Shown here piece by piece: positions 7,334-32,269 of a DNA stretch of 37,746 nt. Location of the stretch: assembly GCA_036784855.1 (NCBI GenBank), contig JAZDSV010000086.1, positions 1-37,746 of the forward strand, given 5' to 3'. This DNA is from Aphelidium insulamus. Lineage: Eukaryota; Aphelidiomycota; Aphelidea; Aphelidiaceae. A model generated the notes under the pieces. That model ran no database searches and had not been told where the DNA came from. It was given only the letters and a program-made list of their open reading frames with translations. A program made the translations under genes and the position numbers. Numbering within the stretch: position 1 is the first letter of the stretch; each line of letters opens with the position of its first letter.

Positions 7334-10300
7334 ATGCCGCTCATCACGTCCAACGCGCAGTTCTTTCAGCCAGAGGTGGACGCGGTGCCGGCAGCTGATG
7401 TCTCGCAGTGGGCAAGGGCAGTGCACGCATACCGGTGCTGGTATCGCCGGTCGGCCCGGCAGTTCCGGTCCATGATGTGGAAGAACTGGGTCTTTACCGT
7501 ATGCTTCCATTATATTCTCACAGGCACATACATATATGCTAACATCTAACGCCGCGGTCATTAGAAACGCCGCGTCAAGCTGACCACGCTGCAGCTGTTG
7601 GCGCCATTTTTCTTTATATGCCTGCTGGTGGCCATCAACGAGCTGCCAAAGAGCAGCCGCAACAATCCCTACAACCCGTTCCCGCAAGTGCTGGACCAGC
7701 CCGTAGTGGGCATAGGCAAGGTTGCCAAGTGCCGGGTAAGCTGATATATATATATATACATATCAGCTCAATTTAACTCAACAATGATTAGACATTCAAT
7801 GAGCGCCCGTGCAAGACCCTTCGCTATACTGGACACGCACTGACAGAGAACGAGAGCCAAGCATTGCACGACCTCGTGCCCTTTATCAAGCAAGGTTGTT
7901 TGATATATATCTATTGATGCCTATAAATCTACCTATGTATACTTACAACAAATATGCAGAGTCGGACCTCAAGGACGGCGACGTCGAGTTCATGGGCAGC
8001 AAGGAGACGCTGATGGACCATTTGCGCGCGGAACCCAACACCACCACCAACGCACTGATATTCCAACGGTTAAATGGCGGCAACTACAAGTATACGCTCA
8101 TGTTCAACGCCACGTACGACGTGATGGTTATCATCGCGCCGTCACGCAAGCCCGACAACCGCAACGAGCTGCAGATCGCCGTGGACAAGGCCATCATGCG
8201 GTACCATCGGCAGCGATACAGCGGCGGGCGGGCGGGCGATGTGTCGCTGGCCAATATCACGTACTCTGCTCGGCAGTTCCCGTCGCTCGGCTTCAAGGGC
8301 GGCATCAATGTGGTGGATGACAATTCGCCAGTGTTTCTCTACTGCGGCATAATGTTCCAATTCGTCATTTTCCTCTACAACATTTGCGTGGAGAAGGGTG
8401 TGTCTCTGTTAGTTTTCATTATGTAATACACCAGCTGACTGACTACAATTATATTGCAGACAAGCGGCTGCGACAGGGCGTCAAGATGGTGGGTCTGCGC
8501 GACTCGATGTACTGGCTCAGCTGGATCGTGACCGCGGCGTTAATCAGCGCCGTGGCCACCATTGTGATGCTGGTCAGCGGCTACATTTGGGGTGTGCGGA
8601 TGGTGACGCGCGCCGAGCCCACCGTCAATTTCGTTGTGTTCATGTGCTTTGCCATGGCCGTCACGGCGCTCGCCATGCTGACCAGTGTCATGATTTCGCG
8701 CACCAAGGCGTCACTGAATGCCGGTATGCTGCACTTTATCCTCGGCCTGCTGGTGGTTGGTGTGTGCGGCAAGGATCAGATCAAGAATGCCATCAGCGAC
8801 ACGTCGAATGTCGACTCTTGGGTGCCGACGCTGCTCTCGCTGCTGCTGCCCGCCTACAATCTGGGCGAGGCGCTGTGCGAAGTCAATCGTGTGGCGGGCG
8901 ATTCGCTGGATGGGCCGACGCCGTATTTCGGCTGGCAGAACGTGTCGCAAGAGACCACATTCAACAAGACGGTGCGCCTGGTGGGCAGCGACGGCAACTA
9001 CGACGAGACGTGGACCATAATTCCGTTGAACAATGTGGCGCACTCGCTCACGTTCATGACCATCAATTTTATTGTGTTTGGCCTGCTTGCTTGCTACCTG
9101 GACCAGGTGTTTCCCGGACCGAACGGCGAACCAATGCCGTGGTACTTTCCATTCGCACCCACCTACTGGGGCTTCCACAAGAAGAATGATGCAAAAGGAG
9201 ATTCTACTGAAAATGGCAATGATGGCATCGATGACGACAAGGCGGACGACGACGATACCGAGGAAACGCCGCTGATTATTGACAGCGATGACTCCGTGGC
9301 GGAGGGGCAAGGCGCCGATGTAGCTGCCGAGACTGAGCGTGTACGGTCAATGAGTCCCTGTGACGGCGCACTGTTGCAGGTCCGTGGACTGCGAAAACAG
9401 TTTAATAGTCGCGGAGTACTGTGGCAGCGTGTTCGTAATGCTTTACAACGCCAACTCCTTCGGCGACAGAACAGTAGCACCACAAACTCCTCTGCGCCTT
9501 CCACTGCCGTGTCCAATCTGTGGCTAAGTGGCGAGTCGGACCAGGTGCTGGCACTGCTCGGGCGCAATGGTGCCGGTAAAACCACCACCATTAAGATGCT
9601 GACGGGGTTGCTGCGGCCGGACGGTGGCGACGCCCTCATCGACGGCCAGTCCGTCATCGCCGATATGAATGCAATCCGACTGCGGCTGGGCGTGTGTCAG
9701 CAGCACGACGTACTGTGGGAGGAGCTGACGGCGCGCGAGCACGTTCAACTGTTTGGCGCCCTAAAAATGGTGCCCACGGAGCACTTGGAGCTGCTGGCCT
9801 ACTGCCTGCTCACCGATGTGGGTCTGTACGAGGTGGCGGACCGCCCTGTGGGCACCTACTCGGGCGGCATGAAACGGCGGCTGAGTGTGGCGCTGGGGTT
9901 CGTGGGTGATCCGCGAATTGTGTTCCTGGACGAGCCGACCACGGGCATGGACCCGTACGTGCGCCGCGATATCTGGAACTTGATTCTGCGCATGAGGCGG
10001 GGTCGTGCCATTGTCATGACTACGCACTCGATGGAAGAGGCCGACATCCTCGGAGACAAGATTGCTCTGCTCGCCAGTGGCCGCCTGCAACTTGTCGGCA
10101 CGTCGCTGGAGCTGAAGGGGCGCTATGCCGGCAAGTGGACTCTGCGCGTGTTTGTGTTGTTTAACTCTATGGGACTAACTTTTACATTTAAGGATACCGC
10201 GTGACTGCGGCAGTCAAGGGCATTGATGGTGCATTGGACATGGTCAGGGCAATGGTTAATGAGCTGCTGCCGGGCGCCGTGTACGAGCCAAACTACTCGT

Positions 10301-10515
10301 CAGTCGGTGCCACTAGGGAGTTAGATGGCGTCTCGCCAGCGGCACAAATCAACTATCTCGCATACACTGTGCCGCCGCAGTTGGACGGCGACATTGTACG
10401 CTTCCTGGAGCGCGCAGAGGCACAGCAGAGCCGGTACATAATCAAGGACTGCAGTGTCACCCAGACTACGCTGGAGGAAGTATTTCTGTCTGCCACAGCC
10501 ACCGCAGACAAGTAG
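7334..10515 (+). CDS. Half-size ABCA-subfamily ABC transporter
   Basis: ABCA proteins move lipids across membranes using ATP. This one has one membrane domain and one nucleotide-binding domain (half-size). Six exons (7334-7498, 7565-7735, 7792-7894, 7960-8397, 8460-10130, 10193-10515) sum to 2871 nt, 956 aa. An N-terminal span (LQLLAPFFFICLLVAI) precedes a large loop, then a cluster of spans from about residue 270 to 560, and an Asp-rich cytosolic linker (DDDKADDDDTEET). The ATPase domain has Walker A GRNGAGKTTT (about residue 659), signature YSGGMKRRLS (758), Walker B VFLDEPTTGMD (781) and the switch histidine in MTTHSMEEAD (811). A low-complexity Arg/Ser insert sits before Walker A. The last intron (10131-10192) is GC-AG with donor GCAAGT. 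Reading through it would stop at 10204 and lose the conserved C-terminal domain. It ends 69 bp from the convergent TMEM33 gene. Confidence 0.92.
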
Positions 10516-10584
10516 CAATAATATATACACTACATGCATATCACTTAAGTTGAGTGTATGTATCTTTTTGCCTCTTCCGTCTGT

Positions 10585-11153
10585 TCATCTGCCACGCTGC
10601 TCGGCGGCCGCCTGCTGTTGTTGTCGGTAGAGAGCGGCTCGGGCATACACATCATTGGCGCTGTATGCAATGAGCCGGTCACGGCACCACGAGTAGACGC
10701 GGCGAACAATGGCAGGACAGCGTCGATGCAGTGTGATGGAGTCGACCCGGGTGCGCAGATCGGTGAATGCTGTGCGTGTGTACGCGCTGTTGGCATAGCG
10801 GTACCGAATGAACATCCAGTAGAGCACCGTGGCCATCAGCGGTCCCCGTCCACTATAGGTCACGTCATGAGGTGAACAATTTAACACATGCACATACAAG
10901 AGAGAGCCCAGGACAAGTACTGGAAGTGACAGAATCTCCATTAGGGCCGCCTGGTAAAGAATAGCGGGCTGAGTCTGTTCAAAGTGGGCCAGAGTGGCGG
11001 TGGCAGCGCGAAGCTTCTCTTCCTGAACCCGCTGTCGGACCCAGAGCTGTGTCAGCACCGATGTGCGCATATAAGATGATACGTGGTACGCCGCATATGC
11101 CGTGAAGGGTGCCACCACCGCTATACTATTTAGCTCATGTCTACATCCAAGTA

Positions 11154-11187
<34 letters not shown>

Positions 11188-11607
11188 CTTACTTATGTAT
11201 GGCTGCTGAGCGGTGGCCATGAATACCAAGGCCACCAACAAGTACTGCATGGACTCGTCAAGGAGTAGTAGCGCCCAATACTCGGTGGACATTCGAGGTT
11301 TCTGAACGCAGCGCGTTAGCATGAGTGCAGACAGATACGTCTACATGTACACAGAGGCGCACACGCTAACCCCAAACCGTTTCCACAGCACGATCGCGTA
11401 CGCAACCGACACGAACTGGAGCGCGCGTCTAAAGTGAGGCAGAGTGGTGTCACTTCCGTACGCCAGCACCGACAACAAAGTGAGCATGGCCGCGGACGCA
11501 ATGTGCAGCAGCTGCATCGCGAACCATGCCGTCTGCAAGTTCATAGCGTTTTTCCTCAAATCAATCGCGGGTGTGTTATTATCCACTACGGACTCCCGCT
11601 TCTCCAT
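10585..11607 (-). CDS. TMEM33: TMEM33/Pom33-family ER and nuclear-envelope membrane protein
   Basis: TMEM33 (fungal Pom33) is a multi-span protein of the endoplasmic reticulum and nuclear pore region. Three exons (11371-11607, 11193-11301, 10585-11120) give 293 aa with exact phases. Family-like stretches are LLLLDESMQYLLVALVFMAT, AILYQAALMEILSLPVLVLG and YWMFIRYRYANSAYTRTAF. The last is followed by a conserved helical region ending RRCPAIVRRVYSWC. Several hydrophobic helices are visible: AAMLTLLSVLAY, the YLLVALVF segment, PVLVLGSLLYVHVL and the ATVLYWMF segment. The C-terminus is Gln/Ala-rich. Intron 2 contains a 28-nt AT dinucleotide run. The gene converges with ABCA. Confidence 0.85.
11157..11184. 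repeat. AT dinucleotide microsatellite inside TMEM33 intron 2
   Basis: Fourteen AT units lie wholly within the second intron of the TMEM33 gene, between donor 11192 and acceptor 11121. Confidence 0.9.
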
Positions 11608-11739
11608 ATTTTATATAAATACATTACCAGTGCACGCTGATAATCCGTGTGTTGAATGTTTTATTGGATCATTTAAGGCTGGTGATGAGTAAGCGGCGGA
11701 ATATTGCATGTGTTCGATAAGTTTGGTTAAGCATTGCAC

Positions 11740-12780
11740 TTAGCTACAGATCGCAAAAATGGGAAGTGCAAAAAGCACGATAGCCCCCTCCCGGACCCGC
11801 ATCTTCACGCCCGCCAGCGCCGCGTCTTTTCTTGCACTTTTCGAAGTGCGCTCGTTTAGTAGAGCGCGCGGTTCCGAACCGATCTTGGCGCGGTCTACCG
11901 CCAGCAGACCACTATCATCAGCAGTCGCAGTGCTGGCGCCATTGTCCAGTAAAACTTTAACCATCTGGAGGCTATCACACAGAGCGGCCTGCTGCAGAAG
12001 CGATCGGCCCAATTCTTGATGGTTTGCAAGTTCCAGCATTTTTTGATAGTTTTTACGTTTTCGGAGGCCATCCATTGACGCCCTTACCATGTCGCAGCTA
12101 TCATGTTCCACGGCCAGCATAACAATACGGCCCTTGGGAGCGCAGCCTTTTTTCGTCACCACCACATCGGCCAACTCGGCGCTATTCTCAAGTGCAGCCA
12201 TGATAAACAGACTATCGACATCCTGCTCCGTGAGGATCTCGATAGCACCGTCAGATAATAGTGCCAGTGCGACTGGTACACTTCCGGGCCTGGGGCTGAA
12301 CAAAGAAATCGCACGAATTGCATCGAGACATGTCTCTGGCTTGCATTTGTCGACGAGCATTTTAACAACGTCGCATCGGTGAGCCATAGCTGCAAAGCCG
12401 AGAGGGGTGCGCTCCGATTTAATCACGTCTTCGCAAGTAACGGGACGGATTTTTGGAGTTTTGACGTCGGGATCCGCGCCGCGACGGAGCAGTTGCTCGA
12501 CAATAAACAACTTGTTTGCATCGCCAGATTCCGATTGTAGGCATGCACAGTGCAACGGCGTCTGACCGTCAGCATCGAGTTCATTCACGTCGGCGTGATC
12601 ATCCAAATATGCTGTGACGGCTGCGACATCTCCTCGCAGCGCCACTTTGTGCAAATTGCCGGCTGTCCCATCGATTCGGCCAATTTCTATGCCGCCATGC
12701 CCTGCTGCTGATCGCATCGGCATTGCGCGGGCGACAGTGCACAGCACGGCCAGAAACGCCCCAGTCTGGGCCACCAACAT
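11740..12780 (-). CDS. Secreted ankyrin-repeat protein, paralog 1
   Basis: This single-exon protein of 346 aa opens with a signal peptide (MLVAQTGAFLAVLCTVARA, cleaved before MPMRS). Ankyrin repeats follow, for example DGQTPLHCACLQSE with LLRRGADPD, RTPLGFAAMAHRCDVVKML, and LLQQAALCDSLQMVKVLLDN followed by GAS. The central repeats are degenerate. Near the C-terminus, after a basic stretch, is a hydrophobic segment (EGAIVLFALPIFAICS) that could anchor the protein. Ankyrin repeats bind proteins and are usually cytosolic, so a signal peptide is unusual and suggests export or a lumenal role. Its partner upstream on the same strand is a small secreted Cys protein. Function is unknown. Confidence 0.8.
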   Translation of the reverse strand: MLVAQTGAFLAVLCTVARAMPMRSAAGHGGIEIGRIDGTAGNLHKVALRGDVAAVTAYLDDHADVNELDADGQTPLHCACLQSESGDANKLFIVEQLLRRGADPDVKTPKIRPVTCEDVIKSERTPLGFAAMAHRCDVVKMLVDKCKPETCLDAIRAISLFSPRPGSVPVALALLSDGAIEILTEQDVDSLFIMAALENSAELADVVVTKKGCAPKGRIVMLAVEHDSCDMVRASMDGLRKRKNYQKMLELANHQELGRSLLQQAALCDSLQMVKVLLDNGASTATADDSGLLAVDRAKIGSEPRALLNERTSKSARKDAALAGVKMRVREGAIVLFALPIFAICS

Positions 12781-12803
12781 GTGTGTGAACTTGCAGGATG
12801 CCT

Positions 12804-12830
12804 AGGTCACGGTTGCCGATGTAACCGGCG
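12804..12830 (-). promoter_or_regulatory. Conserved upstream element of ankyrin paralog 1
   Basis: The stretch is nearly identical to 14916-14943 upstream of the second ankyrin gene (core GGTCACGGTTG, a single C/T change, then GATGTAA and CCGGCGG). It lies 24 nt before the start codon here and about 30 nt there. Similarity continues weakly upstream. It may be 5' UTR or promoter sequence retained from the duplication. Confidence 0.5.
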
Positions 12831-13061
12831 GCGCTGCGCCACGAGATTCAACTTGCTATTGAGTGTCCAATATTAGCATTTTGTTGACGGTTTGCAAACT
12901 ATTTCGGATAAATATATAAATGTAAATATCTAAGCCTAAAGACTCTAAATAAATATATACACAAAGATTGAGAAACTTCTCAAATTAATGGAAAGCGACA
13001 TTTCCAGTGGCACTAATGTTTATATTGATAGCTCGCAGTCAGTATCAATATCAGCAGGCAG

Positions 13062-13568
13062 TTAGACGGAACGACAGGAATACTTTGCAAATTTGTCGTC
13101 CACCGGCACGCACTCATTGGTTGGATGAGCCTCGGGAGTCCACTCGGTACAGTCCGCGGTGTCGCACGTATAGTACACGACCTGTTTGCGCCGGCACGTC
13201 GCTTTGCGGTACACCGACTTGTCAAACACCACAGCCCCATTGGTGTTGAGCGCCTCGGCAGTCACGACCGTGCCGGCTTTGCACCCGTCCGCGGCGTACT
13301 TGCGCAACACTGCGTACTGGTTGCCACCAGTCAGCTTGCCGACGGGCATGAAGTACTTGGTGGAGCGTTTCGTTTGGCACACAGTATCCGTGGTGGCGGT
13401 CGATCTGTTCATGCACAAGATGTTGATGGCGTCATATTGCAGCCAGTTGACGGTCGATTTGGACTCGTCAGCATAGGTCAACGTGGTTTTCGAGGGCAAA
13501 CCATTCGCAGAGGCACCCGAAATAAACCCTGCAACAGTAGCTAGCAGCGCCAAAACCCTCATCAGCAT
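13062..13568 (-). CDS. Small secreted Cys protein, paralog 1
   Basis: The preferred start at 13568 (an alternative is two codons later) gives 168 aa beginning with a signal peptide, MLMRVLALLATVAGFISGASA. The frame is open further upstream, but that would bury the signal. The mature protein has about eight cysteines and shares several motifs with the neighbour at 15051: TLTYADESKS, a tyrosine-rich strand followed by ILCMNR, GCKAGTVVTAEALNTNGAVV, SVYRKATC and YYTCDTADCTEWT. It matches no family I recognise. The conserved spacing suggests a compact disulfide-bonded beta fold that is exported. Confidence 0.75.
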   Translation of the reverse strand: MLMRVLALLATVAGFISGASANGLPSKTTLTYADESKSTVNWLQYDAINILCMNRSTATTDTVCQTKRSTKYFMPVGKLTGGNQYAVLRKYAADGCKAGTVVTAEALNTNGAVVFDKSVYRKATCRRKQVVYYTCDTADCTEWTPEAHPTNECVPVDDKFAKYSCRSV

Positions 13569-14886: not shown

Positions 14887-14915
14887 CTCTTTTTGGAAAA
14901 GTGATGCGAACATTG

Positions 14916-16771: not shown

Positions 16772-19016
16772 ATGCCCGCGCCACACAGCCATACCACTGT
16801 TCACCTTCATTCACACGCGCGCATGACGCCGCTATACAAGGCACAGGTGGCCTACTTTCCTGGCGGTCAGGCGGGCCATCACCTGACCGGCACCCTGTCT
16901 CTGTACTGTGTCCCCGTTGATGGTGATGTAAGAAGCAGCGAAGAGCGTGCTGCATTACCCCGTGGCGCTGGAGGCTTCCATTTGCTGTTTGAACAGACAA
17001 ATGTACCGGCCACCGCCAAAGAGCAGCCCCTACGCCTCGCCGTATCCTTGGCGGACGTGTATGGAGCCCATCTGTCCATGATGGCCCCGGGCGTTGAGTT
17101 CTATGGTGGTGGTGTTAGAGCTCCCACGTCTGCCGGCTCGCAGCCTCTACTCAGCATGGATGGCGGTGGCGGTGGTGCTGGTGGTCAAGTGACGGATACA
17201 GCAATGCCATCGGAAGATGTCAGCACAACATCTGGTTCACAGGCTCGCTCGGCTCAAGTATTCAGTATGCCGCCGCCGACACTTGGCGGTCGCCACTCAC
17301 TGAGCGGCCGCACACACACGGCCACTCAAGTATGCGCATTTCCACGATACCTCAAGTCCGTTCAAGTGGCCGGCGACGCGCTGGTCGCATTTACGGTGTT
17401 TGCCATTCAAGACCAGCCAGACATTCTGTCAAGGCTGTTTGGACAGCGTAGACGCACTGCCACATCAGCTACGGCGGGAATTAAGCGGCCCATCACGCAG
17501 AAACCGGTACACACTACGTTCACCTTCGTGCCGCTTCCACTGGCGCCCGGTGATCTTGCTGAACCTCTGCGATGGGTGACCCTTATTCGTGGTACCATGT
17601 CGCACGGCCATGATGCAGGCAACGTTTCTTCTGCTGGCAAGTAAATTGTGATGTACATTACGTGTACATAACCCTGATACATATATGCTGTTAGAGTCGC
17701 TGATGGAGCCCGTCAAAGCCCGCCGCGTACTGGTGCTCATTAATCCATTTGGAGGTACCGGCAAAGCACAGCGCATATATCGACGCCATGTTGAACCACT
17801 ATTCCTGCTGGCCGGGGTGGAGGCCACTGTCAAACGTGAGTGTTGCATACAATTTTACAATATGATCTTATTCCTTCAGTGACTGAACGTGCGGGACACG
17901 CCAAGGAAATCGGTCAGAAGCTGGAGCTGGCTCGGTATGATGCCGTTGTGACTGTGAGCGGTGATGGACTCTTTCACGAGCTGGTCAACGGCCTGCTGGA
18001 CCGCCCAGATGGCGCCCGGGCCATCCAGACCCCCGTAGCGGTTATCCCGGCCGGTCTGTTACTTTTTAGTTTTTGTTTCTTAATACGACTTTTCTTATCA
18101 TTTCAGGTTCCGGCAACGCGCTGGCCAAGTCCGTGGACACCATGTTTCCCGATGTGGCCGCCGTAAGCATCATTCACGGCATGTCCGTGCATATTTATCG
18201 ACTGTAATATATATATTAATGCAATTCACAGCACATACGAGACCATTCGACATGTTTGCCTTCCGGTTGCTGCAGACTGGCCAGCCGCCGTCCGCAGTTC
18301 GATACGGTTTCCTAGAGTTCATGTGGGCCTTTATCGCCGACGTGGACCTGGAGTCCGACCGGTTCCGGTGGGCCGGCTCTGCGCGCTTCACCCTGATGGC
18401 CATTGTGCGCGTGCTGTCGCTGCGACGCTACCGCGCCACCCTCAAATACTTGCCGCTGGAGGAGACTAATCGCACGCCGGTGGTGGCCGAGATGGGCGGC
18501 ATGTTCTCCAACGGCAAAGTGCCACTGCGACACATTGGCGACGATGTGGATCTGGCGGAGGGCGGCGGCCTGCTGTCTTCTGCCACAGTCGGCGGCGAGG
18601 GCGGCACAGTGGTCACTCCGACGGCTGGGTGGCGCAACGTGGACGCCAAGTACTTCACCTACCTGATGGCGATGAACGCGCCGTGGTGTGCGTCGGACAT
18701 GCTGCCCGCCCCGCACGCCAAACTAGGCGACGGCTCACTGGACCTGGTGTGGATGGCGGACGGGACCGTGTGGCATATGCTGCGCCTGCTGCTTGACACC
18801 GCCAGCGGCACGTACATCAAGGAGCCGTACGTGCATGCGGCAAAGTGTCGTGCATTCGTACTGCAGCCACATCAAGGCTTCCCCAAGGGTCTGCTGGATG
18901 TGGACGGGGAGCAAGTAGGCTCCGCGGACACTGCGGCAATCGCCGTGGAATGTTTGCCCCGTTGTGCCCGCCTTATTGTCCCACAGCATCACGTCGAGTC
19001 TGTTTGGACTCAGTAA
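16772..19016 (+). CDS. Sphingosine kinase (diacylglycerol kinase catalytic fold)
   Basis: The enzyme phosphorylates long-chain sphingoid bases with ATP, producing sphingosine-1-phosphate-type signals. Five exons (16772-17636, 17695-17835, 17880-18053, 18107-18178, 18232-19016) total 2037 nt, 678 aa. The first 290 residues are divergent with a Gly/Ser-rich insert. The catalytic part starts VLVLINPFGGTGKAQ and continues AVVTVSGDGLFHELVNGLLD (the SGDG nucleotide loop), VAVIPAGSGNALAKS and FMWAFIADVDLESDRFRWAG. The C-terminal lobe has AKLGDGSLDLVWMADG. Two introns, 17637-17694 (donor GCAAGT) and 18179-18231 (donor GCATGT), are GC-AG. With them every phase closes and conserved motifs join correctly. 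It converges with PIN4, with an AT repeat between the two stops. Confidence 0.92.
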
Positions 19017-19055: not shown

Positions 19056-19057
19056 TA

Positions 19058-19705: not shown

Positions 19706-22700
19706 ATGTGGCTGCAACTACTGGCACTGCTAGCCTGTTGGTCACTGTTTCCGGATGCTGATGCAGCCAACTGCAATGCGGGACAGTGCAAGGCATCGGG
19801 AGCATGTTACACGTGCACTATCGGCTACTACGACGACTCATCCGTGTTTTGTTCATCGGGAACTCTGTGCGCGCCGTGTCCTATTAACGCCGCGTGTGTC
19901 GGCAAGTAGTTGCTGAGCCATTGTGCCAGTCTAATGTCACATCATAGGGAATGGTTTGACGTCGTTCACGTGTAATGCCGGATACACCATATCAGGCAGT
20001 ACGGCGTGTCAGGCCTGCGCTCAGGGCACATACAAGACAGCGGCCGGCAATGGCGCGTGTTCTTCGTGTCCAGCTGGCTTCACCACGGCCGGCACTGGTG
20101 CCACTTCATCTGCCAGTTGTAGTGTATCGACAGTCACCTCAACTACGTCCATCGTGACCTCCTCGTCTTCTTTCGGGAAGTCGTCTACTTCAAATTCTGT
20201 CTCTGTGGTAGGAACTAGCACAATGACCGTGCTATCAGTGACAAGAACATCAAGTAGCAGCACTTTGTCACCGTCTCCATCCTCTATGGGCACCTCGACG
20301 GTAGCAGCTGCCACTTCAGTCACTAGCACGCCGGCTAACACCGGCACGGCGAGAACATCTACATCCACTTTAGCTGTGTCAGCCTCGTCATCCAGTGGAA
20401 CTTTGCCATTGACGGTGGCGTCCGCAACCACATCTACTCTGGCACCATCTTACTCGTCATCCAACGTTGCTCCGACATCAAGCCTGGTCTCGACGGCCAC
20501 CTATACCGCCATTTTTTCTTCTGTCACTACCGCCAGCAGGACAACGACGACAACAACAGCTACCACTACTCCATCAACGTCATTCAATGCAACTGCAGCA
20601 GCATCAAATATCGTCACGGCCACCTCCACATTGGTGTCAATGTCTTCTGGCCTGATAGCAACAGCTACAATCATCACTTATGCCAATGGCACAGCAGTAT
20701 CACCAAGCACTAGTTACTTGGTAGCCGCCACTGCCACCACCGCTTCGGTTGCCACCACAATATCTCCCGTAGATTCCACCAATACCACCACGAAATGTCC
20801 CAGCGGCTATGTGTCACTGTTGGGCGATGGTTCGTGCACCAAATGCAACTCGACCTTTATCTCGGTGGCCAATGCGTGTGTGTGCGATGCCGGCTACGAA
20901 CTGCTTGGTGGCGTCAATGGGCTGTGCAGCGCTTGTGATGCCGGCAAGTACAAGCCGTTGCCCGGGGTGACGGTCAAGTGCGTCGCCTGCCCTCCCAATA
21001 CCGTGTGCACGGACCCGGGACTGGTGCAGCCGGTATGCGCCCCGGGATATCAGCTTAGCGACCCCAGCAAAGGAATCAAGTGTGAGGCGGTGCCCACGCA
21101 AGATCAATCTGGCAGTAGTAGCAGTGTGGCAACCCCGCCATCCATCGACAGCCAGACACTGATGATTGTGGGCGCCGGTGCGGCCGGTCTACTGATCATA
21201 CTGGCCATGTGCTACTGTTGGGTGCGGCAGGGCCCACGCACGCGCAGTATCAGCACCACGCTGAACAAGCTTAGTGGCAGTCGCATGTTTGACTCGGTGA
21301 TGACCTCGTCGACACTGACGCCGGCACCGCACACTGCAGCTAATGCAGGCCCGGCAGCCTCGGCCATGTTCACGCATCATAGCGTCAGCGGCACCACGAT
21401 GATGAATCCCCGCACGGCCACCGCAAGTTCAACGCGGAGTGACGGCCGGGAGGCACCTGCCGTAGTAAACATCGCGCAACTTTTGCCTGCCAGCGGCGTC
21501 ATAATGAGTTCGGCGGTGGATGTGGAAGAGGTCCTGGTGCAGACACCCGAGTATCTGTTGTTTGCGGCACAGCTTATCACTTCGGCACTAACAGAGGAGG
21601 CCCGGGTGCGCACGGAAGGGTGTCAGCGATTTCTCCTAAAGGTCATCAACGGTGCGTACCTTACTGTACATGTGTAGCAAACAGTCCGACTCATTGCGGT
21701 AGATGATGTGCCGGCAGCGGTGGCGCGCAACACTGCATACCTCGCCACCGAGGCACGTGCACTGTTCCTGGTTAGTCAGGCAAACGTTCACGGTATCATT
21801 GGCTACTGCACGGAGCCGCTCGCACTGTAAGCACAATACAACTTTCGATGCTTTTATTATTAACACATGCCGACTCAGACTGCTACCGTACTATGACGAG
21901 TCGTTGGAAGCGGCAATCGTGCGACGCGAGTCGTGGTTGCTTGACGAGCAGACGCTGGCTGCAGTGGTGCATGATATCGTGCGTGGAGTGCACGCACTGC
22001 ACCTGGCCGATATCGCCCACACCGATATCCGCCCGGGCAATGTGGCCATGTTTGCAGCCAGTGATCAGTCCCCCGCCCGTTGTCGCCTGATCAACCTGGG
22101 CAAGGTCATGTTTACGCAGGAACTGCCGCCCAGCACACGCCTCGAGGCATTTGGCTTGTAAGTTGTTGGCGGTTTATCTTGTACAAAATTAATCTTCACG
22201 TAGCAATGTGTGCTATGCCGCACCGGAAACATTTGGCATCAAGCGACTGAGCGATTGTGACCCCATCAAGGCCGATATATACGCCCTCGGCATGACCATG
22301 CTATCGATGCTGTCTTGCACGCTACCATACGCCGGGATGGACCACCAGGCAGTCATTGAATTGGCATCGTCAAATGCCCGCCTGGACTGGTGCCCTGCTG
22401 CCGACTCGCAACTGTCACGACTGGCATATAGCGCCTGTGCATTCGATCCATCAATGCGGCCCACCGCGCAGATCCTCCTATTCAAACTGCACTCGGCCAC
22501 TGCCACTAACACCGGCGGCCGCACCTCACTGATCCGGCCGCCATCATCGACATCAAACGCCACCACGAATTTACTGTCGCCCACCAGCATTCGATCGCCG
22601 CCTGCCATACTCCCAGCCAGCTATGACAATACCGCATCGAATTATTATTCAAAGCCAGTGGTGCGCAAGCCGGCTCCCACGCTGGTGGATGAGGCCGAGA

Positions 22701-22843
22701 TTGTGCAGCCAATAATGTTACAGTCGGGCAAACGCCGATTGGCACCCACCATGATCGACGAAGCGGAAGAAGTTGACCCAGCGTTGGAAGCTCGGCCCTT
22801 TGCCGAGCTGGACCGGCTGTCATCCGCTATGGCTGATATATAA
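19706..22843 (+). CDS. Receptor-like (pseudo)kinase A with Cys-rich ectodomain and Ser/Thr stalk
   Basis: Five exons (19706-19901, 19948-21651, 21685-21826, 21879-22157, 22204-22843) give 986 aa. In order: signal peptide MWLQLLALLACWSLFPDADA; an N-terminal Cys module with CQACAQGTYKTAAGNGACSS (ephrin-receptor-like/GCC2-GCC3 type); a Ser/Thr-rich stalk of about 210 residues; a second Cys module (CNSTFISVANACVCDAGYEL); one membrane span (LMIVGAGAAGLLIILAMCYC); and a kinase-like domain. The domain has lysine in FLLKVIN, a helix-C glutamate (LATEARALFL), HTDIRPGN, LINLG where DFG is expected, AAPETFG, DIYALGMTML and a conserved arginine (SMRPTA). The glycine loop is not evident. The DFG aspartate is asparagine. 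The tail repeats PTxxDEAE twice and ends with an FAELDRL motif. Intron 1 is GC-AG (GCAAGT). Intron 2 is only 33 nt. Confidence 0.88.
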
Positions 22844-22979
22844 CGAATTTTTCTAAGCATTCATATTGTGATATGCTTGTACTGAACACGGCATGGGGCT
22901 GTCATCCGCTATGGCTGATATATAACGAATTTTTCTAATCAATCAATATTGTGATATGCTTGTACTGAACACGGCATGG
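22815..22979 (+). repeat. 82-bp tandem direct repeat across the receptor A stop codon
   Basis: Copy 1 (22815-22896) holds the last ten codons of receptor A, its stop and 3' sequence. Copy 2 (22897-22979) follows directly and differs only in a short AT-rich patch (AAGCATTCAT versus AATCAATCAA). The second set of codons is downstream of the stop and not translated. The near identity suggests a recent event. The remainder of the gap to 23157 shows no gene. Confidence 0.9.
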
Positions 22980-23157
22980 TTAGGTTATTTAGTGTGTCCT
23001 ATTTCCCGGCACAAAGCAATGGCCGCCACCAATCAGAGCCACGCATGTCAGCGTCACTTGTCGGAGAGTTGAACGCGGGTAGCGGTAACTCGAACCGCAT
23101 CGACACAGCTGTAAGAAAGTTAATTTTCCATCAGCGTGTCTGACGACTAGTATTGAA

Positions 23158-26100
23158 ATGCGCCTCGACACGTACTTTTATGTGGCGCTCGTGTGTCTGT
23201 TGGTCGTGCTGGTTGACAGGGCTTGGGGTGCCAGTTGTACCGCCGGTCAGTGCAAATCAACTGGCAATTGCTACACATGCACCACCGGTTACTACGATAA
23301 TGGCTCGGGCAGTTGCTCATCGGGAACGCTGTGCGCGCCGTGTCCCGCCAATGCCGCGTGTGCCGGTACGCTCTGATGCGCAATGTTTACTGTGACCCTG
23401 ACACTGTCACAGGTACCGGTCTGACGGCATTCACTTGTAACGCTGGCTACACCATATCAGGCAGTACGGCGTGTCAAGCGTGCGCTCAAGGCACGTACAA
23501 GACTGCTGCTGGTAATGGCGCGTGTACTTCGTGTCCCGCCGGATACACCACGGCCGGCACTGGAGCCACCTCCTCGGCCAGTTGCAGCGTCTCGACAGTC
23601 ACAGTCACCTCGACCACGTCCCTGAGATCATCATCGTCGTCCTCAGCGGTGGCGTCTTCCACTTCTTCGTCAGCGTTGACGTCGGCGACTTCTTCATCGT
23701 CAAGATTGTCAACCTCGTCGTCCTCAGCGGTGGCGTCTTCCACTTCTTCGTCAGCGTTGACATCGGCGACTTCTTCATCGTCAAGATCGTCAACCTCGTC
23801 GTCCTCAGCGGTGGCGTCTTCCACTTCTTCGTCAGCGTTGACATCGGCGACTTCTTCATCGTCAAGATTGTCAACCTCATCGTCCGTTGCATTGACTTCA
23901 TCGTCCTCTGCAATGGCAGTGACTTCTACTGTGGCTTCATTGTTCTCATCAGCGGCACCTACTTCCACAGTGGCTTCATCTTCGTCCTCGTCAGCGGCAC
24001 CTACTTCTACTGTGACTTCATCGTCATCCACCGTGGCCTCTACGTCATCGTTGACCATTGTGACATCTTCTTCGTCAAGAGCTGCAACCTCGTCATCTGT
24101 GACATCCGCCTCATCGTCCTCGTCAGCAGCAGCGACATCGACTGTGGCTTCATCATCAGCAGCGACTTCTACTCTGGTTTCGTCGTCATCATCCACAGCA
24201 CCTACTTCGACTCGAGCGCCATCGTCCTCGTCAGCAGCAGCGACATCGACGGTGGCTTCGTCGTCATCATCAGCAGCTTCGTCTACTGCCTCCTCCTTGT
24301 CGGTGGCTACGTCATTATCGTCCCCAGCAGCAGCTACATCCACTTCAGCTTCAACTTCTTCTTCGGCAGTACAATCGTCCTCGTCCTCACGGGTAGCAAC
24401 AACTATAACGTCCACTTTGGCGATGACATCGACTTTCACGGCATCAGCAACTCCAACAACACTAACAACAACAATTGCATTTACCACGTCAAGTAGCTCG
24501 TCGCGAGCGTCAACCTCCACTACTACCGCCACCTTAAAGATCAGTTCTTCGGCATTAACTGGCTCATCCGTGTCATCATCTAATACTGCAGCTTCTTCAG
24601 GCGCTACATCAGCTTTGTCTTTGTCCTCATCGGCGGTGGCGTCCACATCCACTGCTGCAGTGTTGTCGTCTTCTACTGCCGTGTCTTTGGCCACTGCCGC
24701 TTCGTCGACTTCGACAGCCATTTTATCCTCGTCATCGATTGCTGTACCGTCGACTTCTGCTTTGGCTGCATCCGCGTCGTCCTCTGCAGTATCTGCCTCG
24801 TCTACAGGAGTAGCCTCGTCGACTTCCACAGTGAGTGCAATCGCGGGAACGACAACATCTCTCGTGGCAACTACAACATCCTTCACTTCGGCCACCAGCA
24901 CGTCAAGTTCACGCCTGTCTACTACAGCAGTCACGCCATCAAGTTCTTCTTCGCTGGCTCCATCTGCTGTTTCAACTAGCAGCTCTGCTTCTACAGCCGG
25001 GACGTCGTCAACCATGGCCCTATCAAGTATAAGCGCCTCGACTCGGACAGCTTCGTCCTTGCCTTCCACGAGCTCTCAAGCTTCCACTACTGCGTCCTCA
25101 TCATCGGCAACATCAACTGTTTCGTTGTCTTCCTCATTGGCATCGTCTACTCGTTCATCGACCTCTTCAATAGGTACGGCGGCGGCTTTGTCGAGCTCCA
25201 GTTCATCGTCCTCGTTGACAAGTGCAACGACGGCGTCGTCAAGCTCCAGGTATACTTCATCGTCGTCAGTCTCTTTGTTGGCGTCTTCGACAACTTCAGC
25301 TGCGACGTTATCAGCTACAACTTTGACGTCCTCATCTTTGTCTTTGGCGGCTACGTTGTCTGCTTCCACCGTGCTGACAGCAACATCTAGTTTGGCGACA
25401 TCCTCTGTGGCCACCACCTCGACATACTTATCGATTAAATCGTCATCCACTGCTACCACATCGCCCACGTCGACTGTCAGCCCGCTAGCAACAAGTTCTG
25501 CTTCGAGCAACTCTCGACCAAGTACAACTTCAAGCAGTAACGCGGCGGCTTTGGTAACCAGTAGCAGCATTTCTTCTGCGTCAACGAGTGGTTTATTCCC
25601 CTCTGGTGGAAGCAAGAGCAGTTCGCCAGCCTGGTCATCTACTATGGCAATATCCAGTGCCACAACAACATCAGCTGCGTCACCGTTTTCTGTGCAGCAG
25701 ACGTCTCCCGCGGTAGTAACTAGTTCTGCCAAGATATCTTCAGTGATCACAACGACAACCACGAGCATACTCGCGGTATCCAGCACCGCACCAAGTAGCA
25801 CAGCGGTACTGGGATGCCCACCAAACCAGATCGCCATGGGCCCCGTGTGCACCGCATGCAACTCCACGTTCATTGTGCAGAATAATCAGTGTACCTGCGA
25901 CGCTGGCTACGAACTGGTGGGGTCTCAGTGCACCGTATGTCGCGCCGGAACATTCAAGCCGGCCGTTGGCACGGATACAAAGTGCACGCCATGTCCCGAA
26001 AACGCCGAGTGCGTCGGAACCGGACTCTCCAAGCCGGCCTGCGTGACCGGGTTCGTGCTGGACAGCACGGGCGCAACATGCGTGGTGGACTCGGCCAACA

Positions 26101-27715
26101 CGCAGTCCGCCGGCAAGTCGATGATCGACTCTTCGTTGATGATGCTGGTGATTGTCGCAGTGCTGGTGTGCACGCTGTTCCTGTCGGCTGGTGGATTCCT
26201 GCTCTACCGCAGCAACCGCCGTGCCAGCCGCAGATTCAAGAATGAGAGCGCCGCCTACGCTCTGGGCGTGAACATGAGCTCCAACACCGTGGACATGGGA
26301 TACTTGAACAACGGCAACAGTATGGGAGGCAGCAAGGGAGGGCTGGCTGGCTCTGGCAATGATCGGGCCAAGGCAAGCGGTCTGCCTGCAGAATGTGTCA
26401 TCAGCACCGAGTCGGTGGCGGTTGGCGATGTTGTGGATCAGCGCGACAACTACCTGCTATTTGCGGCGCAGCTGAATGGCGGATCACCGGTATCTCAACA
26501 GGTGCTAGATCGCACATATGGCCAGTTGAAGTTCGTTCTCAAAGTTGTCAATGGTATGATTCCATAGTAGTGATATCGATAACATTAAGTAACCATGTGC
26601 CCACCGCAGACGATTATCCAGACACAGTGGCGATGCAGGTCCAGGCCCTCAATCGAGAGGCAAATATCCTGTTCATGTTCGGCCACCCGAATGTCTGCCA
26701 GATTGTGGGCTATTGTGAGAACCCATTTGCAATGCAAGTCCAGCTGTTTGCAATATCTATGTAGTATTTCATTCGCTAACAACTGATACAGGATCCTGCA
26801 CCACTACCACGCCACTCTGGACAAGTGCATGATGGACGCGGAGAATACCGGAATACTTGCAGATGAATTGGGGCAGACCATTGCGGGACGTGATATGGCA
26901 GCCGGTGTTGCAGCAATACACCAATTAAATGTTGCCCACACCGATATTAATCCGGCAAACGTGGCGGTGGTGTTTGGTCAATTTGAGGGCGGCGAAAGTT
27001 TCCGCTGCAGCCTGATCAACTTTGGCAATGGAATCGTCTTGAAGAACGCCACCGGCAGCACGAGATTATCACAGTTTGGATAGTACGTGTTGTGGTATGG
27101 TGCATTCTCTTTTAACGCATATCTAGCACTCCGAATTATGCCGCGCCAGAGACATTCGGAATCAAGACTGTTCGCGATGTGGACCCATTGCAGGCGGATG
27201 TGTATGCGCTTGGCATGACTCTCTTGGCCATAATATCGAAGTCAATTCCATATGAGGGGCTGGATATGGAGAGCATAGTCACCTTGATCAACACGCAGGC
27301 CCGCCTCGACTGGTTCTGCGAGCCCGAGACTGCCATGGCACGACTAGCATTACGCGCGGCATCATTTGAGCCAGCATCGCGTCCATCGTCGCAAGATCTA
27401 TGGGTCAAACTGCGAAACACGGTCAATCTAGTTATGAATGGCGGTGGCGGTGTGGTGACGGCACCCTCGACAATGAATACCGCTGTGATGCTCAAGTCCA
27501 CAATAATTCCGTCAAACATGAACACAGCAGTATCTGTGAAGCAGCAGTCTCTACCAGAGCAGCAATCGCTGCTTGTGCGCCAGGAACCGCAGATAATGGT
27601 ATCAGCAACGGATCAACAGCTGACTAATGGGGGAAATGACAATGCCGCATCAGCTGCAGTACAGCAATCATTTGCCGAACTGGATGCTTTGAACGATGCA
27701 CTCAACGGCCTGTGA
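23158..27715 (+). CDS. Receptor-like (pseudo)kinase B with very long Ser/Thr-rich stalk
   Basis: This is the longest of the three paralogs: five exons (23158-23365, 23413-26553, 26610-26733, 26792-27082, 27127-27715), 1450 aa. Signal peptide (MRLDTYFYVALVCLLVVLVD...WGA); Cys module with SGSTACQACAQGTYKTAAGN; a mucin-like stalk of about 730 residues of Ser, Thr, Ala and Val, including three 27-residue repeats; a second Cys module (CNSTFIVQNNQCTCDAGYEL); membrane span MLVIVAVLVCTLFLSAGGFL; a basic stop-transfer (YRSNRRASRR); and a kinase-like domain. Kinase motifs: FVLKVVN, helix-C NREANILFMF, VAHTDINPAN, LINFGNG in place of DFG, NYAAPETFG, DVYALGMTLL and SRPSS. The C-terminus is FAELDALNDALNGL. 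Intron 3 (26734-26791) is GC-AG (GCAAGT). Ligand, substrate and catalytic activity are unknown. Confidence 0.88.
23640..23882 (+). repeat. Three tandem 81-nt repeats in the receptor B stalk
   Basis: Copies at 23640-23720, 23721-23801 and 23802-23882 are nearly identical. Each encodes 27 residues beginning SSAVASSTSSSALTSATSSS. Shorter, more diverged Ser/Thr motifs continue to about 25790. Near identity at DNA level implies recent expansion. Confidence 0.9.
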
Positions 27716-27952
27716 ATGAGAATATAAATAATTCGAATATATTTTTTTGTTGGCAAGCGCTTAAAACTACATAGTTGTTGTTGCAACTATTTGCCAGCTG
27801 CAAACTGTATATAGCGCGAGGCTATTTTTGGGACATTGCAACTGCTCATCCAATCGCATGTGCGGCAGTTCAGTGGCTGTGCGCACACAGAAAGAAAGCT
27901 TGAATGTTAACTTTCAATCTGTCTAATCCAGCCGTATCGTATAAGGTTGAAC

Positions 27953-30900
27953 ATGCGCGTCACCACGCTGCGCTTTATTGCGCATGGTTGTTTTCTCCTG
28001 GCCGCACTGACAGCAACAAGTGCTGCCATTTCAACATCGGTAACACCGACATCAGCGTCTCCAGCTACGTCGGCGACCTCATCTAGGTTATCTACAAGTT
28101 CAATGGTTTCGTCACTGTCCTCAACTCTGACGACGTCGATCTCTAGTTCGCGATCATCCTCTGCTGTATCGTCGATTTCTTCATCGGTGTCCACGTCGTC
28201 TGTGGTTGTATCAACCAAATCAGCAACTTCAACTGTCGGTACTTCAACATTGCGCTCGTCCTCTGTTGTATCGTCGATTTCTTCATCGGTGTCCACGTCG
28301 TCTGTGGTTGTATCAACCAAATCAGCAACTTCTACTGTCGGTACTTCAACATTGCGCTCGTCCTCAGCTGTATCGTCGATTTCTTCACCGGTGTCCACGT
28401 CGTCTGTGGTTGTATCAACCAAATCAGCAACTTCTACTGTCGGTACTTCAACATTGCGCTCGTCCTCTGTTGTATCGTCGATTTCTTCATCGGTGTCCAC
28501 GTCGTCTGTGGTTGTATCAACCAAATCAGCAACTTCTAGCAGTATTGTGACGACGCCTACTACAACATCAAGTTCTGCGGTACTGACTTCGTCGAGAACA
28601 TCTTCGGCAGTAGTAACAACAGGTTCCACAGCACCCTCGACTTCAACCACGGTAGCAGGTTCGTCATCTTTGCCGTTTCAAGTCTCCAGCGGTACTTCCA
28701 GCAGCACCAAGATATCGACTTCGCAATCCAGCACCGGCACAACCAGTAGTGTTACATCACCATCAAGCACGTCAACCATCATCAGCAGTGGCAGTAGCAT
28801 CATATCTACAGCATCATTGACCAGCACTAGCTCGCGCGCCACATCAACGCCAACTTCCAGCGTTTTGGTCCCATCAAGTATCAGTGCAAGCTCTGCCACC
28901 AGCTCGAGGGCTACGATAACAACATCGGCATCAGCAACCATTGCCTCTACAGTAACGTCAGCCTCTTTGCCGCTATCCACATCGTCACGCTTGTCGGCAT
29001 CAACGTCAGCATCGGCAAGCTCTACGTTGGCCAGCGCATCCAGTCTTTCGATATCTAGCTCAACACTGGCCTCCAGCAGCCAATCGATGGCATCATCGGC
29101 CACTTCAAAGTCACTGAGCAGCAGCGTGACGATATCACAGGTTGTGGCGTCAGGCAGCACTTCTATGTTGTCAAGCACTCCAGCCGTAACCACCTCGTCA
29201 GCAACTGCCAAGCCATCAAGTACTAGTTCAAGTAGTCTGCCTAGCAGCACCGCGGTGGCTGGATGTCCGTCAAACCAGATCGCTGTGGGTTCCGTGTGCA
29301 CCGCATGCAACTCCACGTTCATTGTGCAGAATAATCAATGCACCTGCGATGCTGGCTACGAGTTGGCGGGCTTGCAGTGCATCGTTTGTCGCGCCGGAAC
29401 ATTTAAGTCGTTGGTTGGCACTGACACAAAGTGCACGCCATGCCCCGCCAATGCCGAGTGTGTCGGCAGCGGACTCGCCAAACCGGCTTGCGTTGCCGGG
29501 TTCGTACTGGATAGTACCGGCGCAACGTGCGTGGTGGATTCGGCCAATGTGCAGGCAGGCGGTGCGGCGGTCGTTGATTCATCGGCCGCGACAGCCGCTA
29601 TGGTGGCGGTGCTGGTGTGCACGCTGCTCTTGTCCACGGGCGGCTTCCTACTATACCGCAAGAACAGCCAGCATAAATTGCGGAACCGTAATGAGAGTGC
29701 TGCGTACGCGCTCGGCGTGGACGCAAGTTCCTCCGTGATGGACATGCATGAGCCCGTCCCAAATCCGTTCAAGGAGCGCGGCAAGACGGCTACTGTGCTC
29801 CCATCAGAATGTGTCATGTCCACCGAGTCTGTGGTGGTGGGCGATGTACTGGACCAGCGGCCAAACTATCTGCTCTTCTCGGCACAGCTGAATGGCTCGG
29901 CAGTGTCCCAGCAAGTCATTGGCCGTGCCTACGGCCAGCAGTCGTTCGTGCTAAAGGTTATCAACGGTATGGCATGCATATCACTGTATATGAACTACGG
30001 TACTAACCCCCCACGCAGATGATAATGCAGACACGGTGTCGGTACAAGTCAAGGCGCTGAAGCGAGAAGCGAATATTCTCTTCATGTTGAACCACCCGAA
30101 CATCTGCCACATTGTCGGCTACTGCGAGAATCCATTTGCAATGCAAGTTTACTTGTGTCCGATGTATAGTACTCTGTGGCTAACTCAATGGCAGGATTAT
30201 GCACGTCTATCAGGCCACGCTGGACAAGTGTCTGATGGACTCAAGCGGCAGTGGAATTCTCTCCAACGAATTAGGGCAGACCATTGCAGCGCGTGACGTT
30301 GCATCCGGGTTGGCGGCCGTGCACCACTTGAGCATCGCACATACCGACATATGCCCGGCAAATGTATCGGTTGTGTTTGGAAAGTTTGAGGGCGGTGAAA
30401 CGTTCCGCTGCAGCCTGATCAACTTTGGCAGCAGTATTGTGCTGCGAGATACGGCCGGCACCACCAGACTGTCCGAATTTGGCTAGTAAGTGCTGTGGTG
30501 TGGCGATTCTCATATATAATCATGTATAGCACGCCGAATTATGCCGCTCCCGAGACATTTGGCATCAAGACCCTCCACGATGTGGACCCGCTGCAGGCCG
30601 ATGTCTACGCACTGGGCATGACCATGATGGCCACTATCGCCAAGACTATTCCGTACTGGGGCCTGGACGCGGAAACAATTGCCAACGTGATCAACAGCGA
30701 GATCCGTCTGGACTGGTTCCGTGCGCCCGACTCATCGCTTGCGCGGTTGGCACTGCGGGCAGCGTCGTTTGAACCGAGCTCCCGCCCGTCGGCGCATGAT
30801 TTGTGGACCAAACTGCGCAGCACCGTGGTCTTGGTTGCCAATGGCGGCGGCGGCAGTATGTTTGCGCCTGTATCGGCGACAAGCACCGCGCGTGTGCTTA

Positions 30901-31187
30901 AATCACCTACGGCCCCCGCGTCCAACACCCATTCAGCCAATGTCACCATGTCAGTGCCGGCGAACAAAAGGCAAAATGCATTGCCAGAACATCAGCAGTC
31001 GATCTCGATGCAAGTTGTGCGCGAGGTACCGCAACTGAAGGCATATCAGCAACAACGACCAGTTAGTCAACATATGCAGCAGCCAGCGCAACAACAACCT
31101 CTCTACGTAGATAGCGAGGCATCGGCGGCGGTGATGGAGAAATTTGCCGAACTTGATGAGCTAAACGCGGCGCTCAACGGACTCTAG
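27953..31187 (+). CDS. Receptor-like (pseudo)kinase C lacking the N-terminal Cys module
   Basis: Four exons (27953-29966, 30019-30142, 30195-30485, 30530-31187) give 1028 aa. After the signal peptide (MRVTTLRFIAHGCFLLAALT...) the Ser/Thr-rich stalk of about 410 residues begins at once, so the Cys module found at the N-terminus of A and B is absent. A juxtamembrane Cys module (CNSTFIVQNNQCTCDAGYEL), a membrane span (TAAMVAVLVCTLLLSTGGFL) and a kinase-like domain follow, all closest to receptor B. Motifs: FVLKVIN, KREANILFML, IAHTDICPAN, LINFGSS instead of DFG, NYAAPETFG, DVYALGMTMM, SRPSA. The tail is Gln-rich and ends FAELDELNAALNGL. The second intron (30143-30194) is GC-AG, at the same position as the GC intron of receptor B. 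Confidence 0.88.
28157..28537 (+). repeat. About 3.7 tandem 102-nt repeats in the receptor C stalk
   Basis: Copies start at 28157, 28259, 28361 and 28463 (the last incomplete). Each encodes 34 residues including SSISSSVSTSSVVVSTKSAT and TVGTSTLRS. The unit differs in length and sequence from the 81-nt unit of receptor B, so the two arrays arose separately. Confidence 0.9.
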
Positions 31188-31250
31188 GCGAGCTGACAAG
31201 CCGATAAGCGCATACATCTAAATACTATTAAATATAGACTCATACTTGAC

Positions 31251-31460
31251 AGTCTCCCACTCAAAGCTGCAGACACAACTATCGATATCGTTAGACACCA
31301 ATAGCGACGTCATGTTCTAAGAAGTGACATGACCATTACGTAAAGTTGAGAGTCTCCCACGCAAAGCTGAATATCCAAATATCCAAATTCAAATATCGAC
31401 ATCATTAGACACCAATAAAGACGTCATGTACTAAGAGCAGACAAGGCCATTGCGTCAAGT
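31251..31460. repeat. Imperfect ~100-bp direct repeat in the gap after receptor C
   Basis: AGTCTCCCAC...CAAAGCTG...ATCGA[T/C]ATC[G/A]TTAGACACCAATA...GACGTCATGT[T/A]CTAAG appears at about 31251-31347 and again at 31351-31460. It is non-coding. No other feature is seen between the receptor C stop (31187) and the MsrA start. Confidence 0.7.
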
Positions 31461-31537
31461 GAGACGGGAGAGACAGTGGAATGCTTGTGTGACTCATACA
31501 TAGCCAGTATTTAATACAGAGACGCGCACAATTGTGC

Positions 31538-32269
31538 ATGAAACAATTCATATCGACAATTGCGCGCGGCATTGGCAGCAGCATGTCGGCCCCCTCGACC
31601 ACCAGCACCCTGATGCCGCGTGAACCATCGGTGCCCACCCACGAACTGGCCACCGTGGCTGCCGGATGCTTCTGGGGCCTGGAAAAGTTCTTCAAGCAGG
31701 AGTTTGGCAGCGGCATTGTGTCGGCGAGCGTGGGCTACACGGGCGGCCACACCCAGCAGCCGACCTATGAGCAAGTGTGCTCGGGCAGCACTGGCCACGT
31801 AGAGGCGTTCCAGTTTGAGTTCGACCCGGCCAAAGTGAGCTATGAGCAGCTGTTGCAGTTTCTGTTCCGCATGCATGATCCCACCACTCTGAACCGTCAG
31901 GCATGTATTACTTACTTATACATGCATGACTGATATAGTCAGATGTCTATCTGACCAGTTATGATATCCCCAAACTTTTAATAAATATCGGATAGGGTAA
32001 CGATACGGGATCGCAGTACCGCAGCGCCATATTCTACCACTCGGAGAAGCAGCGTGACATTGCCGCGCGTATCAAGCACGATATCCAAGAACAGCACTAT
32101 CCCACCCAAACAGTAGTGACGGAAATCGTGCCTGCCGGCGACTATTGGCGCGCCGAAGAATATCACCAGAGGCACTTATATTCTGTGTGGTCTATACTCT
32201 CTTTAAACAGTACACAGATACTTGGAACGCCACCCAGCCGGCTACTGCAACCACAAACTGCGCTGGTAA
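31538..32269 (+). CDS. MSRA: Peptide methionine sulfoxide reductase A
   Basis: MsrA reduces methionine-S-sulfoxide in proteins, using a catalytic cysteine and thioredoxin. Three exons (31538-31900, 31996-32171, 32218-32269) give 196 aa. The catalytic Cys44 sits in AAGCFWGLEKFF. Other family motifs are SVGYTGGHTQQPTYEQVCSG, STGHVEAF, DPTTLNRQGNDTGSQYRSAI, GDYWRAEEYHQ and the C-terminal HPAGYCNHKLRW with the resolving cysteine. The first 30 residues (MKQFISTIARGIGSS...) are basic/Ser-rich and could target mitochondria. Both introns are GC-AG: 31901-31995 (donor GCATGT) splits QG of the conserved NRQGND, and 32172-32217 (donor GCACTT) lies in YHQ-R-YLE. Family conservation fixes both junctions, and no GT donor gives the right frame. 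Confidence 0.93.

Follow-up and report, generated by a model that had tools for sequence, protein, structure and literature searches.

Do eight introns that begin with GC, crowded into one stretch of the Aphelidium insulamus genome, mark a local accident, a faulty set of gene models, an altered splicing machinery or a genome-wide property of this aphelid, a member of the algae-eating sister group of Fungi? The stretch analysed here as the window (positions 1–37,746, contig C159, features on the forward strand) was originally predicted to carry these eight GC-AG introns among 38, a share of roughly 20% taken to signal a shifted preference of U1 small nuclear RNA (snRNA) for its 5' splice site. 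The evidence assembled below points to a different answer, and one that is very probably correct: these would be ordinary U2-type GC-AG introns, making up about 6–9% of A. insulamus introns and read by a U1 with a normal 5' end, the mismatch at donor position +2 being compensated by the rest of the site and two forces perhaps setting the share. The introns concerned, with the two GT-AG introns used for comparison, are as follows.

10131..10192, + strand: GC-AG intron of an ABCA-type transporter (gene 7334–10515), GCAAGT...TTTAAG, 62 nt, phase 1
17637..17694, + strand: GC-AG intron of a sphingosine kinase (gene 16823–19016), GCAAGT...GTTAG, 58 nt, phase 1
18179..18231, + strand: GC-AG intron of the sphingosine kinase, GCATGT...CACAG, 53 nt, phase 1
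19902..19947, + strand: GC-AG intron of receptor A, GCAAGT...CATAG, 46 nt, phase 1
21827..21878, + strand: GT-AG intron of receptor A (GTAAGC), paralogous to the GC introns at 26734 and 30143
23366..23412, + strand: GT-AG intron of receptor B (GTACGC), paralogous to the GC intron 19902–19947
26734..26791, + strand: GC-AG intron in the kinase domain of receptor B, GCAAGT...TACAG, 58 nt, phase 2
30143..30194, + strand: GC-AG intron in the kinase domain of receptor C, GCAAGT...GGCAG, 52 nt, phase 2
31901..31995, + strand: GC-AG intron of methionine sulfoxide reductase A (MsrA), GCATGT...GATAG, 95 nt, phase 0
32172..32217, + strand: GC-AG intron of MsrA, GCACTT...CACAG, 46 nt, phase 2

All eight donors lie where they had been placed and read as had been reported (five GCAAGT, two GCATGT, one GCACTT), and the remark that most follow an exon G applies to six of them, a T preceding those of receptors B and C. 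U12-type introns carry a donor of the RTATCCTT type, and this motif is absent from all eight. For each intron, all frame-compatible and stop-free GT-AG and GC-AG pairs up to 45 nt from each end were scored with the +2 base left unweighted, and the GC donor outscored every GT alternative at eight of eight sites (GC against the best GT: 3.03 and -1.89 at 10131, 3.28 and 0.05 at 17637, 4.68 and 2.54 at 18179, 4.10 and 1.56 at 26734, 4.19 and 1.94 at 30143, 3.48 and -2.24 at 32172). For ABCA 10131 and MsrA 31901, pairing this GC donor with another AG gives a higher score (3.08 vs 3.03 and 5.46 vs 4.47, respectively), but conserved residues would then be lost.

Protein conservation was said to span the junctions in MsrA, the sphingosine kinase and ABCA, and it does so to different degrees. 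In MsrA, LNRQ/GNDTGSQYRS (the slash marking the junction) aligns without a gap through the 31901 junction to a solved MsrA structure (2j89), and the conserved motif EEYHQR/YLERHPAGYCNH crosses the 32172 junction gap-free against solved MsrA structures. Spliced ABCA reads LKGRYA/GYRVT and aligns to the end of the second nucleotide-binding domain of ABCA4 (LKSKFGdGYIVT) with a one-residue gap at the junction. The sphingosine kinase intron at 18179 is covered by the alignment to sphingosine kinase 1 (residues 281–491), locally weak but in frame on either side of the junction, and the one at 17637 lies upstream of this alignment, which starts at residue 281, so that no family motif spans it and its basis is splice signals and frame, with an in-frame TAA after the donor. 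For the receptors the argument is one of paralogy: the GC intron at 19902 in receptor A (CVG/NGLTSFTC) equals in position and phase the GT intron 23366–23412 of receptor B (CAG/TGLTAFTC), and the GT intron at 21827 in receptor A has IIGYCTEPLAL / IVGYCENPFAM and phase 2 in common with the GC introns at 26734 and 30143. Paralogues can thus carry a GT or a GC donor at the same intron position. Six of the eight predicted sites rest on such conserved motifs or paralogous introns, and 18179 rests weakly on frame and flanking homology; in those six (both MsrA introns, ABCA and receptors A, B and C) homology or paralogy fixes a GC 5' end and an AG 3' end, as in the U2-type GC-AG class.

A semi-Markov gene finder, written for this analysis and trained on GT introns only, was run either with all 16 donor dinucleotides weighted alike (blind decode) or with GT and GC allowed (two-donor decode). 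The blind decode of the window recovered five of the eight sites at a strict penalty and six of the eight donors at a lax one. Both sphingosine kinase introns were among those found; 30143 and 32172 appeared at both penalties, 26734 at the lax penalty only, and 31901 with the acceptor listed above at the strict penalty and with another at the lax. It missed 10131, which was shifted, and 19902, in a region without a gene model. The two-donor decode placed 34 GT and 10 GC introns, seven of the latter being sites of the original prediction, whose denominator of 38 was not reproduced exactly.

How far this extends was gauged within a searched genome of 17.95 Mb in 169 contigs (the published assembly has 18.93 Mb in 274 scaffolds), using as main sample the stretch C160:1–200000 of another contig. 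Blind decoding of these 200 kb yielded 153 GT and 18 GC introns, and 63 spread over the other 14 dinucleotides (a mean of 4.5). Of the 18 GC donors, 15 lie in AnGT contexts (AAGT 10, ATGT 3, ACGT 2; GT donors with AAGT also number 10), which gives a GC share of 15/165 or 9.1% (15 GC vs 150 GT; confidence interval 5.6–14.5%; p = 2e-10 against 1% and p = 7e-4 against 3.46%), or about 8% when 4.5 is subtracted from GC and GT counts alike. This is an upper figure, since the blind decode loses weak GT donors. The two-donor decode gave 325 GT and 21 GC introns in AnGT contexts (6.1%), a further 38 of its 59 GC calls lying outside such contexts and being treated as probable noise. The share is estimated at about 6–9% of introns, or about 1 in 11 to 16. 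As computed from predicted introns, it looks raised well above the usual ~1% and beyond the window, and the 20% originally proposed is the value of the window itself.

Comparison with solved structures covered five GC junctions of the sample. The alignment is ungapped around two of them in myosin-I and one in prohibitin; one in C1-THF synthase is inside a single matched stretch, and one in Sec24 is three residues from a two-residue gap. The prohibitin junction is conserved also in two Amoeboaphelidium proteins, and the closest relatives of this prohibitin by score are two proteins of that genus (81% identity). The 87 genes predicted by one decode end in TAG (32), TGA (30) and TAA (25), and the standard genetic code therefore fits A. 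insulamus; in the related Amoeboaphelidium protococcarum UAR is described as encoding glutamine (PMC5304391, seen in part). The GC content of Amoeboaphelidium is 40%.

The GC donors have a distinctive context. In the sample they carry A at +3 in 94%, A at +4 in 67%, G at +5 in 94% and T at +6 in 94% of cases (n = 18), and the GT donors (n = 153) have A at +4 in 19%, C in 31% and T in 42% (p = 5e-5 for the difference in +4A). Nearly all of the GC donors stand at sites whose other positions pair well with U1 (+3A, +5G, +6T), MsrA 32172 with its GCACTT being an exception. The shift in 5' splice-site preference proposed at the outset is present in this sense, but it is conditional on a strong remainder of the site, and no changed U1 was found.

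Genome-wide counts bear on the same rule. The pattern MAGGNAAGTAT, complementary to U1 except at +2, occurs with C 37, T 11, A 9 and G 5 times, the T figure being that left after removal of the four U1 genes, where the complementary sequence is present; the CAGG form CAGGNAAGTAT has 36 matches, and T stands in 8/36, 4 of them U1 genes. GGC AAG being an ordinary codon pair, raw counts were not trusted alone and the sites were decoded blind to +2 (36 of the 37 C sites, all 11 non-U1 T sites, all nine A and all five G sites). An intron started exactly at the site, at the lax penalty, in 17/36 C, 2/11 T, 0/9 A and 0/5 G cases (p = 0.0018 for C against A and G combined). The 37th C site, C160:126007, lies in the 200-kb sample, where it is a GC donor. 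At the middle penalty GC introns were decoded at such perfect-context sites on 12 contigs. For MAGGNATGTAT the counts are T 52, C 21, A 15 and G 7 (95 against 46 for the reversed control), one of the 21 MAGGCATGTAT k-mers being MsrA 31901; decoding of the other 20 C sites and of the first 20 of the 52 T sites, with no A or G sites taken, placed introns at 10/20 C and 9/20 T sites (lax), then 7 and 8, then 5 and 7 as the penalty rose. From these figures GC would make up some 90% of donors at perfect sites (18 C and 2 T, with the site in the 200-kb sample included), roughly one third where T stands at +4, and 6–9% overall. The pattern MAGGNGAGTAT showed no excess for T or C (T 10, C 8, A 14, G 0 of 32; reversed control 48).

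Two further approaches were set aside: the broad pattern MAGGNAHGTAT (190 matches, reversed control 159) was replaced by the narrower ones, and scoring of 20 CAGGCAAGTAT loci by flanking coding potential was ambiguous and superseded by the +2-blind decode. A literature search did not find this quantitative rule of GC share by donor context in print, nor a report of GC-AG introns in aphelids, and in the main text of the A. insulamus assembly paper (PMC10608142) the word ‘intron’ does not occur and ‘splic’ occurs once, in a reference title. That paper names a transcriptome of A. insulamus X-134_O14 as transcript evidence.

A mechanism consistent with these observations can be outlined. A U1 with a normal 5' end would recognise GC donors, the C-A mismatch at +2 being offset by near-complete pairing at +3 to +6 and usually by a G at -1, and the introns would presumably be spliced efficiently in the cell. 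GT donors have a predicted mean U1 pairing energy of -6.0 kcal/mol and GC donors one of -4.1; with T at +2 the latter would reach -8.1. For human U1, +2C is described as binding better than +2A, with selection mainly by duplex stability (PMC4383343, consulted in part, as also below). A first force may then be tolerance, a T-to-C change at +2 being accepted at sites that are otherwise strong. Tolerance alone does not account for the surplus of C over T at perfect sites, C/(C+T) being only 0.33 in intron interiors (18 of 20 being C at perfect sites, p = 1.5e-7). The second force may be an upper limit on how strongly a donor pairs with U1 overall. Such a ceiling would work against the perfect GT donor, probably since U6 can bind only once U1 has left; T or C at +4 would keep GT donors below it, the otherwise-perfect donor would nearly always carry C at +2, and GC would be the usual way of keeping a strong donor releasable from U1. 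This part of the proposal is put forward tentatively. GT donors with at least seven of nine U1 matches number 5 where column shuffling predicts 10.9 (p = 0.013); the decoder score threshold can itself partly produce such a shortage, for which reason the ceiling is a step that we infer.

The alternative that survives best concerns this second force only. Under neutral drift, T and C at +2 would be equivalent at strong sites and their ratio a matter of mutational balance, with no pairing ceiling. The ten GC and ten GT donors with AAGT in the sample are not significantly off the intron-interior value (p = 0.10), as drift would have it, but the 18 to 2 ratio at fully complementary sites departs from that value strongly. 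Drift is a serious contender, if one that falls somewhat short of an even chance.

A U1 variant or a changed U1-C protein that reads GC donors directly is unlikely; the original prediction had suggested a look at the U1 5' end and U1C. The genome has four near-identical U1 genes, all with the 5' end AUACUUACCUG (scoring ~44 bits, below the Rfam gathering cut-off of 69.5), and a search with the U1 body revealed no fifth copy, although a very divergent U1 would escape it. ATACTTGCCTG, the 5' end expected of a GC-pairing U1, was considered and rejected: it has 21 matches (one for the reversed control), none at a U1-like gene, and this k-mer is the complement of CAGGCAAGTAT. U6 has a normal ACAGAGA box, so that both snRNAs are canonical, and U1-C and one LUC7 locus are present. 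What speaks for this alternative is the zinc finger of U1-C (contig C32), which reads HNSGWKH where the human protein has HCSGRKH, so that Trp aligns with human Arg28, a residue close to the backbone of the duplex; the human R28G/K29S double mutant did not enhance E complex formation (PMC4383343). Against it, Ala at the Arg28 position of yeast U1-C (Lys in yeast) left growth unaffected (PMC4383343).

Several observations weigh against an elevated, context-dependent GC share. The GC junctions are predicted here from genomic sequence, and the main sample comes from a single contig as one unbroken 200-kb stretch, which includes 5,000 N at C160:100001–105000, perhaps an assembly gap. Because the blind decode draws on +3 to +6 signals from its training on GT introns, it is biased towards strong sites and may overestimate the GC share, and 63 of its 234 introns carry probably wrong dinucleotides. 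At the perfect-context sites stricter penalties lower the C figure to 14/36 and 12/36 with T, A and G unchanged, and a decode without donor weights places no intron there at all (0/36 C, 0/11 T). Reversed-pattern controls gave 12 against 36 matches for the CAGG form CAGGNAAGTAT, but 30 against 30 for the AAGG form AAGGNAAGTAT, and raw k-mer counts overstate the C excess because C is a common codon third base (31%). Seven loci of 3.1–3.4 kb on other contigs yielded 16 GT, no GC and 12 other dinucleotides.

A gene-model artefact has a precedent in Heterorhabditis, where a high GC-AG share of 8.9% was described as an annotation error that fell to 0.8% after re-annotation (PMC5906903, seen in part), and only 21 of the 59 GC calls of the two-donor decode lie in AnGT contexts. 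An artefact would nonetheless not be expected to leave conserved protein sequence crossing the GC junctions, paralogous introns that switch between GC and GT at one position, or 18 GC introns where the other 14 dinucleotides average 4.5, and we regard it as very unlikely. A chance cluster in a genome with ~1% GC-AG introns, for which the window share of 8/38 (marginally above that of the sample, p = 0.047) and the seven GC-free loci may be cited, is scarcely credible beside 15/165 in an independent stretch of another contig and perfect-context GC introns on 12 contigs. The GC-AG excess is probably real and unusual, and of a known kind.

Some features of the window and the genome stand apart from the introns discussed. 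Positions 19708–31187 hold a tandem array of three receptor-like genes, each with an S/T-rich part, a cysteine-rich part and a kinase domain; Pfam matches in receptor A are Pkinase and an ephrin-receptor-like stretch, and the kinase of receptor C, used as a query, has only 10 matches at E 1e-5 among 7,998 scored candidates, the best at 39% identity. A ribosomal protein S27 gene (PF01667) at 3945–4430 has three GT introns on hand reading. The Methyltransf_10 family, to which METTL16 belongs, has two matches on contig C12; yet +4A is uncommon in GT donors despite the canonical U6.

If ordinary GC-AG introns are as frequent as estimated, the consequences reach beyond this window. A gene finder restricted to GT would mis-model the genes listed above, as had been anticipated, and, with about 2 to 4 introns per predicted gene in the sample (234 in 99 genes and 384 in 87 genes in the two decodes), a sizeable minority of all genes. 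Aphelid gene sets are used to reconstruct fungal origins, and inferences of gene loss could be biased. The species would also offer a natural system that trades the +2 base against the rest of the donor, in which harm from excess U1 pairing becomes testable genome-wide.

Among known systems, the closest are the U2-type GC-AG introns of animals, plants and fungi, which have, as here, GC at the 5' end, AG at the 3' end and a normal U1, together with a compensating consensus elsewhere in the donor. In the GUAUGU donors of Saccharomyces cerevisiae the U at +4 limits U1 pairing, much like the +4 T of GT donors here, but GC is not an alternative relief in yeast. In human and mouse GC-AG introns are put at ~0.8% of protein-coding introns (PMC7242645, in part), unlike the ~6–9% estimated here, with GC outnumbering GT at perfect-context sites. 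For Globodera, partial data from the published account give a donor consensus CAGG[T/C]AAGT supported by RNA sequencing and 3.46–3.56% non-canonical introns in two table columns (PMC4901422); A. insulamus resembles it in a GC/AG share clearly above ~1% (15/165, and 21 GC vs 325 GT, as computed from decodes), but in Globodera GT donors share the strong consensus, whereas here they favour T or C at +4. Oikopleura and Eurytemora likewise have raised non-canonical donors, in their case GA-AG introns for which a U1 variant was proposed (PMC7072748, in part); here the donors are GC, the U1 copies found are normal, and no copy with a matching altered 5' end was found, though a very divergent one would be missed. 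The introns of Amoebophrya and of diplonemids, as far as the excerpted reports describe them (PMC7789003; PMC12621601), have variable boundaries, tied in part to inverted repeats or end-to-end pairing. These, too, are protist genomes poorly handled by standard gene finders, but in A. insulamus only the +2 base changes.

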